Below, piece after piece: positions 6,289 to 10,560 of a DNA stretch of 42,864 nucleotides (positions are counted from its first letter, which is position 1; every line of letters begins with the position of its first letter). Both the position numbers and the translations under genes were made by a program. This DNA is from Bacteroidetes Order II. bacterium. GTDB lineage: Bacteria; Bacteroidota; Rhodothermia; Rhodothermales; UBA2364. The DNA lies in NCBI GenBank assembly GCA_016788705.1, contig JAEUSQ010000022.1:1-42864 (forward strand), in the 5' to 3' direction. A model generated the notes under the pieces. It was not told the origin of the DNA and searched no databases. It saw nothing but the letters and a program-made list of their open reading frames with translations.

Positions 6289-8031
6289 ATGAAGCCTGTC
6301 TTACACAACCTCTTATTCCTAACGTGCTTGGGAATGTCCTTCATGGGTCTCTACGCCCAAAACATGAACGTATCAGCCACCCGCCAACAATCTGCATATG
6401 CTTGGGTAGATGCCATCACTCTTCCCCTCGTAGACAATGACGCCGAAGTCTTACGTGCAACCCTCAAAACAAAAAAGCGGGGCAATCGGTACCGTCTTGC
6501 CAAAGCCATTCCAACGAAGATAAATTTTTCCAACGATGGAACTTGGGTAGCAGACGAGAAGGGAAATCGGGTTTGGCGTTTGGTGCTGGATTCCCCCAGT
6601 GCCCTCGGTCTCTCCCTTCGTTTCGACCACCTACAAGTACCAGAAGGGTCCATCGGACGGTTTGTTCCATTAGATGGCAAAAGCAAGCAAGTGGATATTC
6701 CGCTACAACCGAAAGCCAATGGCTCTTTTTGGTTTCCGGTGGTAAACAGCAATGCCGCATTGGTAGAATTGGTATTTCCGGGTAATGAAGCCATTTCGGG
6801 CGAGATTGGAACCGTGTATCACCATTTCCGGAACAACACCAATAATGGCTTGAACAAAAAAGCCTCTGGCAGTTGTAATGTGGATGTCGTTTGCTCCAAC
6901 GCCAATGGCTATCCTCAAATTGATGCCTGGCGTAACCCCATTCGCTCTGTCGGAATGTTGGAATTTGAGGCCGAGGACGAAAATGGCGATCTGGGCATTT
7001 ATGTCTGCTCAGGCGCCTTGATCAACAACACCAAAAACAATCAAATTCCTTATTTATTAACGGCCCAACACTGTATCATGAATGAAACAGAAGCAAACTC
7101 CACTTGGGTGTATTGGAACTACCAAAGTAGTACGTGCCGGACCCTCAACTCTACTGCCAATCAAACCCCCATAGACTACACCACTTTCCCCTATTCCGAA
7201 GGCACTACACTGGTGGCCTCTTGGGGCGGTGAAAACGCAAATGGCACTTTTTTTGGATCGGACTTCACCCTGTTGCAATTAGAAGAACAACCAAGCCCAA
7301 GTTGGAATTTGCATTATGCAGGCTGGGAACGCCGGAGTTTTATGCCGTTTTCGGCGGTAGGCATTCACCATGCAAATGGCGACGAGAAACGCATTAGCTT
7401 TGAAAACAACGCCCCTGTACAGGTCACTTTTTCTGACAATACTCCAGGAGATGCCTTTATGGAAGTTGAACAATGGGACTTAGGCGTCACAGAAGTGGGT
7501 TCTTCGGGCAGTCCTCTATTTAACCAAGCGTTCCGGATTGTCGGACAACTCAACTCGGGTGAATCGGAATGTGGGAGCAACAGTCCCACAACTGTGGTGA
7601 AAGGCCCCGACTATTATGGGCGGCTTTATACGAGTTGGAACGGAGGCGGAACCGCACAAACCCGCCTAAAAGATTGGTTAGATCCGCTCGGCACGGCACC
7701 AAACAATGTGGATGGAACAGACGCGACGATTATTACGGCCAACGAGCCGGATAAAACCCTTCCCGGCGGTGCTATTTTGAAAGCCGCATACCCCAACCCC
7801 TTCCAATCAGAAACAAGTTTCTTGATCTCGATTCCCAAAACCGAATCCGTTCAAATCCGTTGGTTCAATGCTGCTGGACAAGAGGTGAAGCCTGCTGTCA
7901 ACAGTATGTTGGAAGCCCATACCGAATACCGTGTCACATTTGATGGAACCAATTTACCAAATGGCATTTATCTGTACCAGATTAAAGGCGCCATGTTTTC
8001 CGAAACCGGAAAAGTTGTTCTACTACGATAA
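6289..8031 (+). CDS. Secreted trypsin-like serine protease with T9SS sorting domain
   Basis: This 580-residue protein starts with a cleavable signal peptide (hydrophobic core LLFLTCLGMSFMGLYAQ). A pro-region of about 170 residues follows, then a chymotrypsin-fold protease. The triad is legible: His261 in LLTAQHC, Asp325 in GSDFTLLQL, and Ser406 in GSSGSP. Paired cysteines flank the catalytic core. The last ~80 residues form a type IX secretion C-terminal domain (AYPNPF start, NAAGQEV, LPNGIYLYQI, VVLLR end), so the protein is probably exported across the outer membrane and anchored at the surface or released. The next gene begins 9 bp downstream, suggesting co-transcription. It resembles lysyl endopeptidase-like proteases; substrate preference cannot be read here. 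Confidence 0.9.
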   Translation: MKPVLHNLLFLTCLGMSFMGLYAQNMNVSATRQQSAYAWVDAITLPLVDNDAEVLRATLKTKKRGNRYRLAKAIPTKINFSNDGTWVADEKGNRVWRLVLDSPSALGLSLRFDHLQVPEGSIGRFVPLDGKSKQVDIPLQPKANGSFWFPVVNSNAALVELVFPGNEAISGEIGTVYHHFRNNTNNGLNKKASGSCNVDVVCSNANGYPQIDAWRNPIRSVGMLEFEAEDENGDLGIYVCSGALINNTKNNQIPYLLTAQHCIMNETEANSTWVYWNYQSSTCRTLNSTANQTPIDYTTFPYSEGTTLVASWGGENANGTFFGSDFTLLQLEEQPSPSWNLHYAGWERRSFMPFSAVGIHHANGDEKRISFENNAPVQVTFSDNTPGDAFMEVEQWDLGVTEVGSSGSPLFNQAFRIVGQLNSGESECGSNSPTTVVKGPDYYGRLYTSWNGGGTAQTRLKDWLDPLGTAPNNVDGTDATIITANEPDKTLPGGAILKAAYPNPFQSETSFLISIPKTESVQIRWFNAAGQEVKPAVNSMLEAHTEYRVTFDGTNLPNGIYLYQIKGAMFSETGKVVLLR

Positions 8032-8040
8032 AAAAACTTT

Positions 8041-10560
8041 ATGATGAAGACCGGGAATTCCACCGCCCAAACCCGCTATACCAACAATCGTTGGTCCTAC
8101 GACAAAACCCGCAAGTACACCATTGGATTTGTGGTGTTTATGTTGCTTTTTTCAATGGGAACGACACTGTTCATATACCTAGGAAAGAAAAGCCCGACGA
8201 TGCAAAGCCGGTTGCAAGCCCTTTCTCAGGAAATGTTGCCCTCGGTACGTTCTCAGGAATGGGCTGCACGGCAAGGGTATCGCGAAGTGGCCCAAAAACT
8301 GACGGCGTTTATACAGCGCGAAATGGCCGATAAAAAAATTCCCGGTCTTACCATTTCGCTTGCCGACGGCAAAGATATTGTTTGGGCCCGAGGTTTTGGC
8401 AGAACAGACACCACCCAGCGCCTTTTGGCTACGCCAGAATCTGTTTGGCGGGTGGCTTCTGTTACCAAGTTATTTACCGCTGTGGCCATTATGCAACTGG
8501 TGGAAAAAGGCAAGTTGGACTTGGATGCACCGCTTTCTACGTATGCACCAGAAATCGCCTTCCAAAACCCCTTTAACAAACCCATTACCATCCGCCACTT
8601 ACTCAGCCATCGGAGCGGAATTCTAAGAGAGCCTGCTACTGGAAGTTATTTTGACCCTACTACACCTTCGCTTGCTGCAACAATCAAAAGCCTTTCGGGA
8701 ACGGAAGTTTATTTTGAACCTGGAACCAGTACCAAATATTCCAACGCAGCATTTACGCTTCTTGGTTATCTCATCGAGAAGGTAAGCGGTCAGACATATA
8801 AGACCTATATTCGAGACCATATCCTTCGGCCTACCGACATGCCCCTCAGCGCCATTGACTTGGAACCCCGCCTGAAGCCCAAAATGGCGACTGGATACAT
8901 GTGGCGCTACGACGGCCATCTGTTCCGTGCCCCCATCTTCGATATGGGCATTGCACCCGCAGCAGGGCTGAATACCACGATGCCAGATTTAGCCCGTTTT
9001 GCCATGATGCTCTATCGGGGTGGAGTCAGCCCTTCCGGGAAACAAATAATCCAAGCATCCACCCTCGAAGACATGTGGACACCACAATTTACCGCTGATA
9101 AAAATGGCTTTGGCTTGGGGTTCTATGTTTCTGATTTTAGTGGCTTTAAAAGAATTCAACATTCCGGTGTTCAGTATGGGATTGCAACCCGTTTTTACGC
9201 TATTCCTTCCGAGAAAATTGCGGTTACGGTCTCAGGAAATTTAGACAACAGTAATACGGTCATAGACCGAATCAACCATTATGCCACCCAACTACTGCTG
9301 GCGCTTAAACAAAAGAAGCCGCTCCCAGAACCCGATCTTACAGTGGCTATACCAGAAGCTGAAGCACGCCCTACTTTGGGATATTACCAAAACGAAAAAA
9401 CCCAACAGATCCATGTTGTCCGGTGGTTCAACAAAGCCTTATGGTTCCATGACGGTACGTATTATCAACGCATTCGTAAAGCAACAAATGGCGGTGGAAT
9501 GATCACAGATGGACGTTTGGGATATGGGACTACTGTTCAGTTCGACGCCAATACGCTCACTTTTGGTGGGCAGCGCTATCTCAAAGTCCCCAAGCCAAGC
9601 TTACAAGTCCCTTTGCGATGGAAGGAATACATCGGGGAATATGGATGGGATCATAATGTACTATTTGTCTTCCCCCAAAACAATCGCCTGATGACCCGAA
9701 TCGAATGGTTCGACGATTACCCGATGCAAGAAGAAGGGTACGACCAGTTCTCCTTTCCCAACTCAGGCTTGTACCAAAGTGAAAAGATCGTTTTTACACG
9801 CGATAAGTCGGGAAAAATAAATGGTGTAAGAGCAGCTGGAATTTACTTTAAACGTCGCAAAATACCGATTCAACCCCACTTAACTGACGGTCTAACATTT
9901 GCCGATAAAGACAAGTCCGTTGCCTATATCGTACCTCAAAAAACGCAGGAAGAACTCCTTCTTTTGGCCAAGGAAGGAGCACCCAAAGCAGAAGTTGGGA
10001 AACGACCGATGGACTTGGTACAGCCTGCATTGCTGGATCGGACCATTTTGTTGGATATGCGGTATGCTACCGACCGTAACTTTATGGGCATGCGCTTTTA
10101 TGACCTTGCCCGCGCCTATCTACAACGCCCAGCAGCAATGGCACTTCTGCGCGTCAATCAAAAGCTAAAAGAACAAGGGCTGGGGCTGATGATTCATGAT
10201 GCCTACCGTCCTTGGTATGTCACCAAAATGTTTTGGGAAGCAACGCCTATTGCACAACGTAATTTTGTCGCCAATCCCGCAGACGGATCGCGCCATAACC
10301 GAGGCTGTGCCGTGGACCTTACACTATACCATTTGGCATCGGGGGTGGCTGTAGAAATGCCCAGTCTATACGACGAGTTTTCCGAACGCGCCGCCGCCAA
10401 TTATCCCGGTGGGACGGAAGAACAACGCCGCTACCGACAAATTTTACGCCAAGCAATGGTTTCCGAAGGCTTTACTATCATGGAAGACGAGTGGTGGCAC
10501 TTCGACTATCAGGATTGGCGCAACTACCCCATCGGCACCAAGCGCTTTGAAGAACTTTAA
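8041..10560 (+). CDS. Fusion protein: class C beta-lactamase-like serine hydrolase + VanX-like D-Ala-D-Ala dipeptidase
   Basis: This 839-residue protein has one N-terminal membrane anchor (about residues 28-50), which places the catalytic part in the periplasm. Residues about 85-425 are a class C beta-lactamase/esterase/DD-peptidase fold with Ser140-x-x-Lys143, Tyr233-Ser-Asn235 and His374-Ser-Gly376. A linker of about 200 residues follows. Residues about 660-839 are a peptidase M15D (VanX/DdpX) domain: zinc ligands His751 and Asp758 in SRHNRGCAVD, and Glu817-Trp-Trp-His820 with the catalytic glutamate and third zinc ligand. All catalytic residues I can check are present in both halves. VanX enzymes hydrolyse free D-Ala-D-Ala; DD-peptidases act on peptidoglycan stems. 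The fusion suggests sequential processing of D-Ala-containing peptides, which is inference. Confidence 0.88.
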   Translation: MMKTGNSTAQTRYTNNRWSYDKTRKYTIGFVVFMLLFSMGTTLFIYLGKKSPTMQSRLQALSQEMLPSVRSQEWAARQGYREVAQKLTAFIQREMADKKIPGLTISLADGKDIVWARGFGRTDTTQRLLATPESVWRVASVTKLFTAVAIMQLVEKGKLDLDAPLSTYAPEIAFQNPFNKPITIRHLLSHRSGILREPATGSYFDPTTPSLAATIKSLSGTEVYFEPGTSTKYSNAAFTLLGYLIEKVSGQTYKTYIRDHILRPTDMPLSAIDLEPRLKPKMATGYMWRYDGHLFRAPIFDMGIAPAAGLNTTMPDLARFAMMLYRGGVSPSGKQIIQASTLEDMWTPQFTADKNGFGLGFYVSDFSGFKRIQHSGVQYGIATRFYAIPSEKIAVTVSGNLDNSNTVIDRINHYATQLLLALKQKKPLPEPDLTVAIPEAEARPTLGYYQNEKTQQIHVVRWFNKALWFHDGTYYQRIRKATNGGGMITDGRLGYGTTVQFDANTLTFGGQRYLKVPKPSLQVPLRWKEYIGEYGWDHNVLFVFPQNNRLMTRIEWFDDYPMQEEGYDQFSFPNSGLYQSEKIVFTRDKSGKINGVRAAGIYFKRRKIPIQPHLTDGLTFADKDKSVAYIVPQKTQEELLLLAKEGAPKAEVGKRPMDLVQPALLDRTILLDMRYATDRNFMGMRFYDLARAYLQRPAAMALLRVNQKLKEQGLGLMIHDAYRPWYVTKMFWEATPIAQRNFVANPADGSRHNRGCAVDLTLYHLASGVAVEMPSLYDEFSERAAANYPGGTEEQRRYRQILRQAMVSEGFTIMEDEWWHFDYQDWRNYPIGTKRFEEL

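Follow-up and report, generated by a model that had tools for sequence, protein, structure and literature searches.

An apparently undescribed fusion of an S12 serine hydrolase and a VanX-like dipeptidase in Bacteroidota

Introduction

Peptidase family S12 also takes in esterases and lactamases. One member, the D-aminopeptidase (DAP) of Ochrobactrum anthropi (PDB 1ei5), consists of an S12 domain followed by two C-terminal barrels. The VanX-type dipeptidases VanX and DdpX are separate cytoplasmic proteins of about 190–200 amino acids. Pab87, an S12 enzyme that is itself D-stereospecific, has both D-aminopeptidase and muropeptide DD-carboxypeptidase activity and attacks D-amino-acid peptides from both ends; it removes the terminal D-Ala of muropeptides, and its gene lies among genes for dipeptide transport, an aminotransferase and a D-aminoacylase (PMC2651629). 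In VanXY, DD-dipeptidase and DD-carboxypeptidase activities are combined in one protein (PMC6403190).

Here we analyse a gene from a stretch of 42,864 nucleotides (the window; Bacteroidetes Order II. bacterium, contig JAEUSQ010000022.1) in which an S12 domain and a VanX-like (M15D) domain are joined. Whereas a single M15 domain carries out both activities of VanXY, the window protein joins two unrelated catalytic domains. A literature search found no account of the S12-M15D architecture, which agrees with the first-pass annotation of this DNA, where the combination was not known as a described enzyme.

Results

The fused gene is a single uninterrupted open reading frame of 839 amino acids with an ATG start (8041..10560, + strand, as are all features of the protein given below), recognised by its Pfam matches and its homologues. 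Sequence inspection places a hydrophobic anchor at approximately residues 24–47 (8110..8181), with the basic side inside. This is followed by an S12 serine-hydrolase domain (residues 88–409, 8302..9267), which matches PF00144 (Beta-lactamase) at 230.8 bits against a Pfam cut-off of 27 (E 3e-68), by two small modules within residues 411–623, and by the M15D domain with an N-terminal lead (residues 624–839, 9910..10557). The match to PF01427 (Peptidase_M15) covers residues 671–825 (104.5 bits, cut-off 27, E 8e-30), and VanX (PDB 1r44) is matched at E 2e-17. Homologues mostly have a lipobox cysteine or a signal peptide where the window protein has its anchor. Based on the anchor here and the lipobox cysteine in most homologues, the protein is likely membrane-bound outside the cytoplasm and facing the periplasm. 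The first-pass annotation had proposed one membrane-anchored polypeptide with both domains and two complete catalytic centres. The single reading frame, the two Pfam domains and the anchor bear this out, and the centres are complete; its positions S140, K143, Y233, H374, E817 and H820 are right, but its H751 and D758 should read H752 and D759.

Fusions were searched for in all 114 genomes of the window's order and in 98 genomes of a second order. Twenty-three full-length fused proteins, 32–92% identical to the window protein, are present in 22 genomes and span eight families (f1, f2, f3, f4, f7, f11, f21 and f39). Two further fusions (G394 and G452) are interrupted by contig ends and are outside the 23. 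The recurrence in 22 separate genomes shows that the fusion is neither a chance joining nor a frameshift, and rules out the sequencing error that had been named at the outset as a way in which two separate genes might have been joined. Both catalytic centres are complete in 19 of the 23 proteins. Comparison with the nearest, 92%-identical homologue (L032) gave dN/dS values of 0.08 for the S12 domain (values for the S12 part lie at 0.05–0.08), 0.04 for each of the modules and 0.03 for the M15D domain; strong purifying selection acts on every segment of the fused frame. The fusion is real and old and apparently undescribed; what is new is the architecture and not the chemistry.

The S12 domain carries the three motifs of its family, S140-V-T-K143 with the nucleophile (SxxK, 8458..8469), Y233-S-N235 (YxN, 8737..8745) and H374-S-G376 (HxG, 9160..9168), which together with the PF00144 score place it in peptidase family S12. 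The catalytic residues are all kept in 19 of the 20 non-degenerate fused proteins. Narrower assignments fail. The class C label given initially does not hold: the class C beta-lactamase model scores 68 bits against an NCBIfam cut-off of 415, and in place of the KTG of class C enzymes the third motif reads HSG (374–376). DAP-type D-aminopeptidase is likewise rejected (PRK13128, 50 bits, cut-off 443). The top NCBIfam match is AmpH (PRK10662), at 108 bits with a cut-off of 266. Pab87 (PDB 2qmi) is the nearest solved relative (E 3e-47), and the window S12 domain is predicted to be Pab87-like. In both, the S12 domain precedes a small module, lipocalin-type in Pab87 and probably so here, and the gene contexts among relatives are comparable; Pab87 is an archaeal self-compartmentalising octamer with a single lipocalin module and without M15D. 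The YAE and ERY motifs specific to the CubicO (Pab87) family (PMC2651629) are both absent from the window protein, so it is not a member of that family.

In the M15D domain, alignment to 1r44 identifies R723 (10207..10209) as the equivalent of VanX Arg71, H752-x6-D759 (10294..10317) as the zinc ligands His116 and Asp123, and E817-W-W-H820 (10489..10500) as the catalytic glutamate and third zinc ligand. D778 (10372..10374) aligns with VanX Asp142, which presumably binds the free amino end of the substrate, and is kept in 20 of 20 non-degenerate fused proteins. The PF01427 match, the HxxxxxxD and ExxH zinc-site motifs and R723 place the domain in M15D. All nine positions checked, equivalent to VanX Y21, Y35, R71, S114, H116, D123, D142, E181 and H184, are kept. 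R71 and E181, including the role of Arg71, are discussed for VanX in PMC5778951. Because the active-site and substrate-contact residues are kept, the domain is predicted to be a D,D-dipeptidase. It differs from VanX and DdpX in being fused rather than separate, and it scores below both equivalog cut-offs, which rejects it as a VanX resistance equivalog (NCBIfam dipept_VanX, 75.9 bits, cut-off 320) and as a DdpX equivalog (PRK10178, 133 bits, cut-off 176).

Between the catalytic domains, the first module (residues 411–530, 9271..9630), probably lipocalin/DUF3471-like, is the fastest-diverging part of the fused protein; DUF3471 is weakly recognised in seven of 19 homologues (best E 8e-5). The second module (residues 527–610, 9619..9870) is shared with stand-alone S12 proteins of rhizobia and with half proteins that have no S12 domain. 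When the two modules were compared with hhalign as possible duplicates, the probability was 58% over 35 columns only. The module 2 profile aligns with the last part of the O. anthropi D-aminopeptidase (1ei5) at just E 0.3, and a barrel fold for the modules is therefore a lead, not a result. The same profile retrieves the rhizobial proteins at E 3e-6 to 5e-8. These proteins, of about 552 amino acids, align in one piece with window residues 83–606 at 31–32% identity. One of them, WP_113156755.1 from Nitratireductor (32% identical over this range), stops where M15D starts and is encoded in a transporter/epimerase operon. Since the S12 domain and two modules stand alone as a unit in rhizobia, it is clear from these alignments that both modules belong to the S12 unit, and the stretch previously taken for a 200-residue linker is part of it. 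The O. anthropi enzyme resembles the window protein in having an S12 domain plus C-terminal modules, of which the last weakly matches module 2, but it is without M15D, and the window protein scores far under the cut-off of the DAP model.

The S12 domains of all fused proteins group in a single clade of the S12 tree (support 100/98). In the M15D tree, one clade (100/100) mixes fused, S12-less and stand-alone forms, interleaved with one another. Family f21 has eight proteins, and Gemmatirosa one, in which module 2 is followed by M15D without S12; as module 2 derives from the S12 unit, these proteins look like relics of an ancestor that had the fusion. In genus g10, the fusion is present in G451, whereas G179 has M15D alone at the corresponding locus, where one flanking gene is 87% identical and another 49%. 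A single old fusion followed by repeated loss of S12 is the simplest account and fits best; separate fusion events are a less likely possibility.

Unexpectedly, three fused paralogues, all on the + strand and in family f11, are pseudoenzymes that have lost both catalytic centres (L096:1966-4395, L097:5882-8263 and L098:5940-8330). Their changes are K143 to Q, H374 to I or L, H752 to Q, D759 to A or S, and E817 to T, K or R. The proteins are full-length (794–810 amino acids) and their S12 parts are 51–59% identical to one another; on both counts they look maintained rather than decaying. G412 carries an intact copy (L086) besides the degenerate one, and the other two f11 genomes have no further M15 match. 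Outside this branch, only K143 is lost in L194 (K143N), and M15D is intact. Because the loss of both sites is confined to one branch, it counts as a single event and is weak evidence for coupling of the domains.

Upstream of the window gene lies a trypsin-like protease gene (6289–8031, +) whose product has a T9SS sorting tail; it ends nine bases before the fused frame, and the pair is kept in each of the three genomes that the genus comprises here. An alpha/beta hydrolase gene lies downstream. The neighbours of the window's own fused gene are uninformative and include no D-amino-acid gene; resistance genes are absent beside it and from the neighbourhoods annotated for its relatives. The conserved neighbours of the fused genes in family f7 (rpoC, a MOSC protein and a permease) are housekeeping or unrelated. 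All four rhizobial stand-alone S12 loci examined contain a dipeptide ABC transporter and, variously, genes for a dipeptide epimerase, an aminotransferase, an M55 D-aminopeptidase, a D-serine ammonia-lyase or an alanine racemase/D-Ser dehydratase. In Gemmatirosa, a cluster (L208:1895-9091) encodes an S12 protein of the DUF3471 kind, an M19 dipeptidase, the module 2-M15D protein, an amino-acid permease and an amidohydrolase. G298 and G536 carry a gene resembling L-Ala-D/L-Glu epimerase at a distance of 3–4 kb from the fusion, and in G298 an amino-acid permease gene separates the two; a 39%-identical homologue of this epimerase-like gene is located elsewhere in the genome of G000. The rhizobial, Gemmatirosa and G298/G536 contexts point to the breakdown of D-amino-acid peptides.

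Two rhizobial plasmid operons (L205:1-12880 and L206:519-12901) combine S12 with dipeptide transport, dipeptide epimerase, aminotransferase and M55 D-aminopeptidase genes, and apparently represent an uncharacterised D-peptide catabolic system.

Among 80 Bacteroidota loci with a stand-alone M15D gene, an S12 gene is nearby in five, so that as a rule the two activities are not encoded close together; the case for operons of separate S12 and M15D genes in this phylum is weak at best. The only directly adjacent case is L116:3878-6693 (- strand), where M15D is immediately followed by an S12 gene with DUF3471.

Discussion

We consider it fairly probable that the fusion is a membrane-anchored bifunctional D-peptidase, predicted to be periplasmic, for the breakdown of muropeptides and other D-peptides; its export topology, substrates, order of steps and physiological role are inferred. 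The S12 domain with its two modules would act as a Pab87-like D-stereospecific peptidase, trimming peptides that contain D-amino acids, such as muropeptide stems. M15D would then release free D-amino acids from D-Ala-D-Ala or similar D,D-dipeptides, whether produced by this trimming or taken up. That both steps sit on one chain may reflect their sequential action on one peptide pool, and the products could feed cell-wall recycling or the scavenging of cell debris. Several points count against this reading. The window's own gene has no D-amino-acid gene around it, the S12 family includes esterases and lactamases, and separate S12 and M15D genes seldom lie together. Related genomes kept M15D after losing S12, which suggests that the coupling is dispensable, and free D-Ala-D-Ala is, to our knowledge, not a common periplasmic metabolite.

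The same domains might instead serve wall remodelling, with an AmpH-like S12 DD-carboxy/endopeptidase taking the last D-Ala off pentapeptides of the sacculus and M15D clearing stray D-Ala-D-Ala, so that the protein sets pentapeptide levels rather than feeding catabolism. The membrane anchoring, the rank of AmpH as top NCBIfam match and the muropeptide DD-carboxypeptidase activity of Pab87 (PMC2651629) are consistent with such a role. However, the AmpH score is far under its cut-off, the gene contexts point towards peptide uptake and catabolism, and the fused protein is absent from many close relatives; we regard remodelling as unlikely. That M15D survives the loss of S12, as in the f21 module 2-M15D proteins and in G179 compared with G451, and remains intact beside K143N in L194, raises the question whether the M15D half alone matters physiologically, with the S12 domain and modules as a readily lost part that serves binding or structure. 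The retention of every S12 catalytic residue in all but one of the non-degenerate fused proteins and the low dN/dS of the S12 domain make this improbable.

The first-pass annotation had suggested recycling or an antibiotic response. The former, as recycling or catabolism of D-peptides, is likely. For the latter, S12 would hydrolyse beta-lactams or D-Ala-like antibiotics while M15D reduces D-Ala-D-Ala, in the manner of VanX in resistance to glycopeptides. Family resemblance is all that speaks for it; the class C and VanX cut-offs are missed (68 against 415 and 76 against 320 bits), HSG replaces KTG, the surroundings of the window gene and the annotated neighbourhoods lack resistance genes, and glycopeptides hardly cross the outer membrane. 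We therefore find an antibiotic response highly improbable.

A more specific proposal is that the fusion hands D,D-dipeptides from S12 to the VanX-type dipeptidase and that the f11 paralogues have become receptors or regulators that no longer catalyse but still bind D-peptides or fragments of the wall. Taken as a whole, this is quite unlikely. The doubly inactive paralogues nevertheless offer a test case for an enzyme pair turning into a non-enzyme.

In the bifunctional D-peptidase that we favour, two unrelated catalytic domains aimed at D-amino-acid bonds have come together, in the simplest account through a single event, and distant Bacteroidota have retained them in one chain. Should the two domains act as predicted, one compact protein would lead from wall peptides to free D-amino acids while still outside the cytoplasm. 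This would also hint at what the many uncharacterised M15D dipeptidases exported by Bacteroidota do. Separately, G146 encodes a 552-residue M15D protein with a long N-terminal part (L172:5706-7361, - strand), perhaps another fusion.
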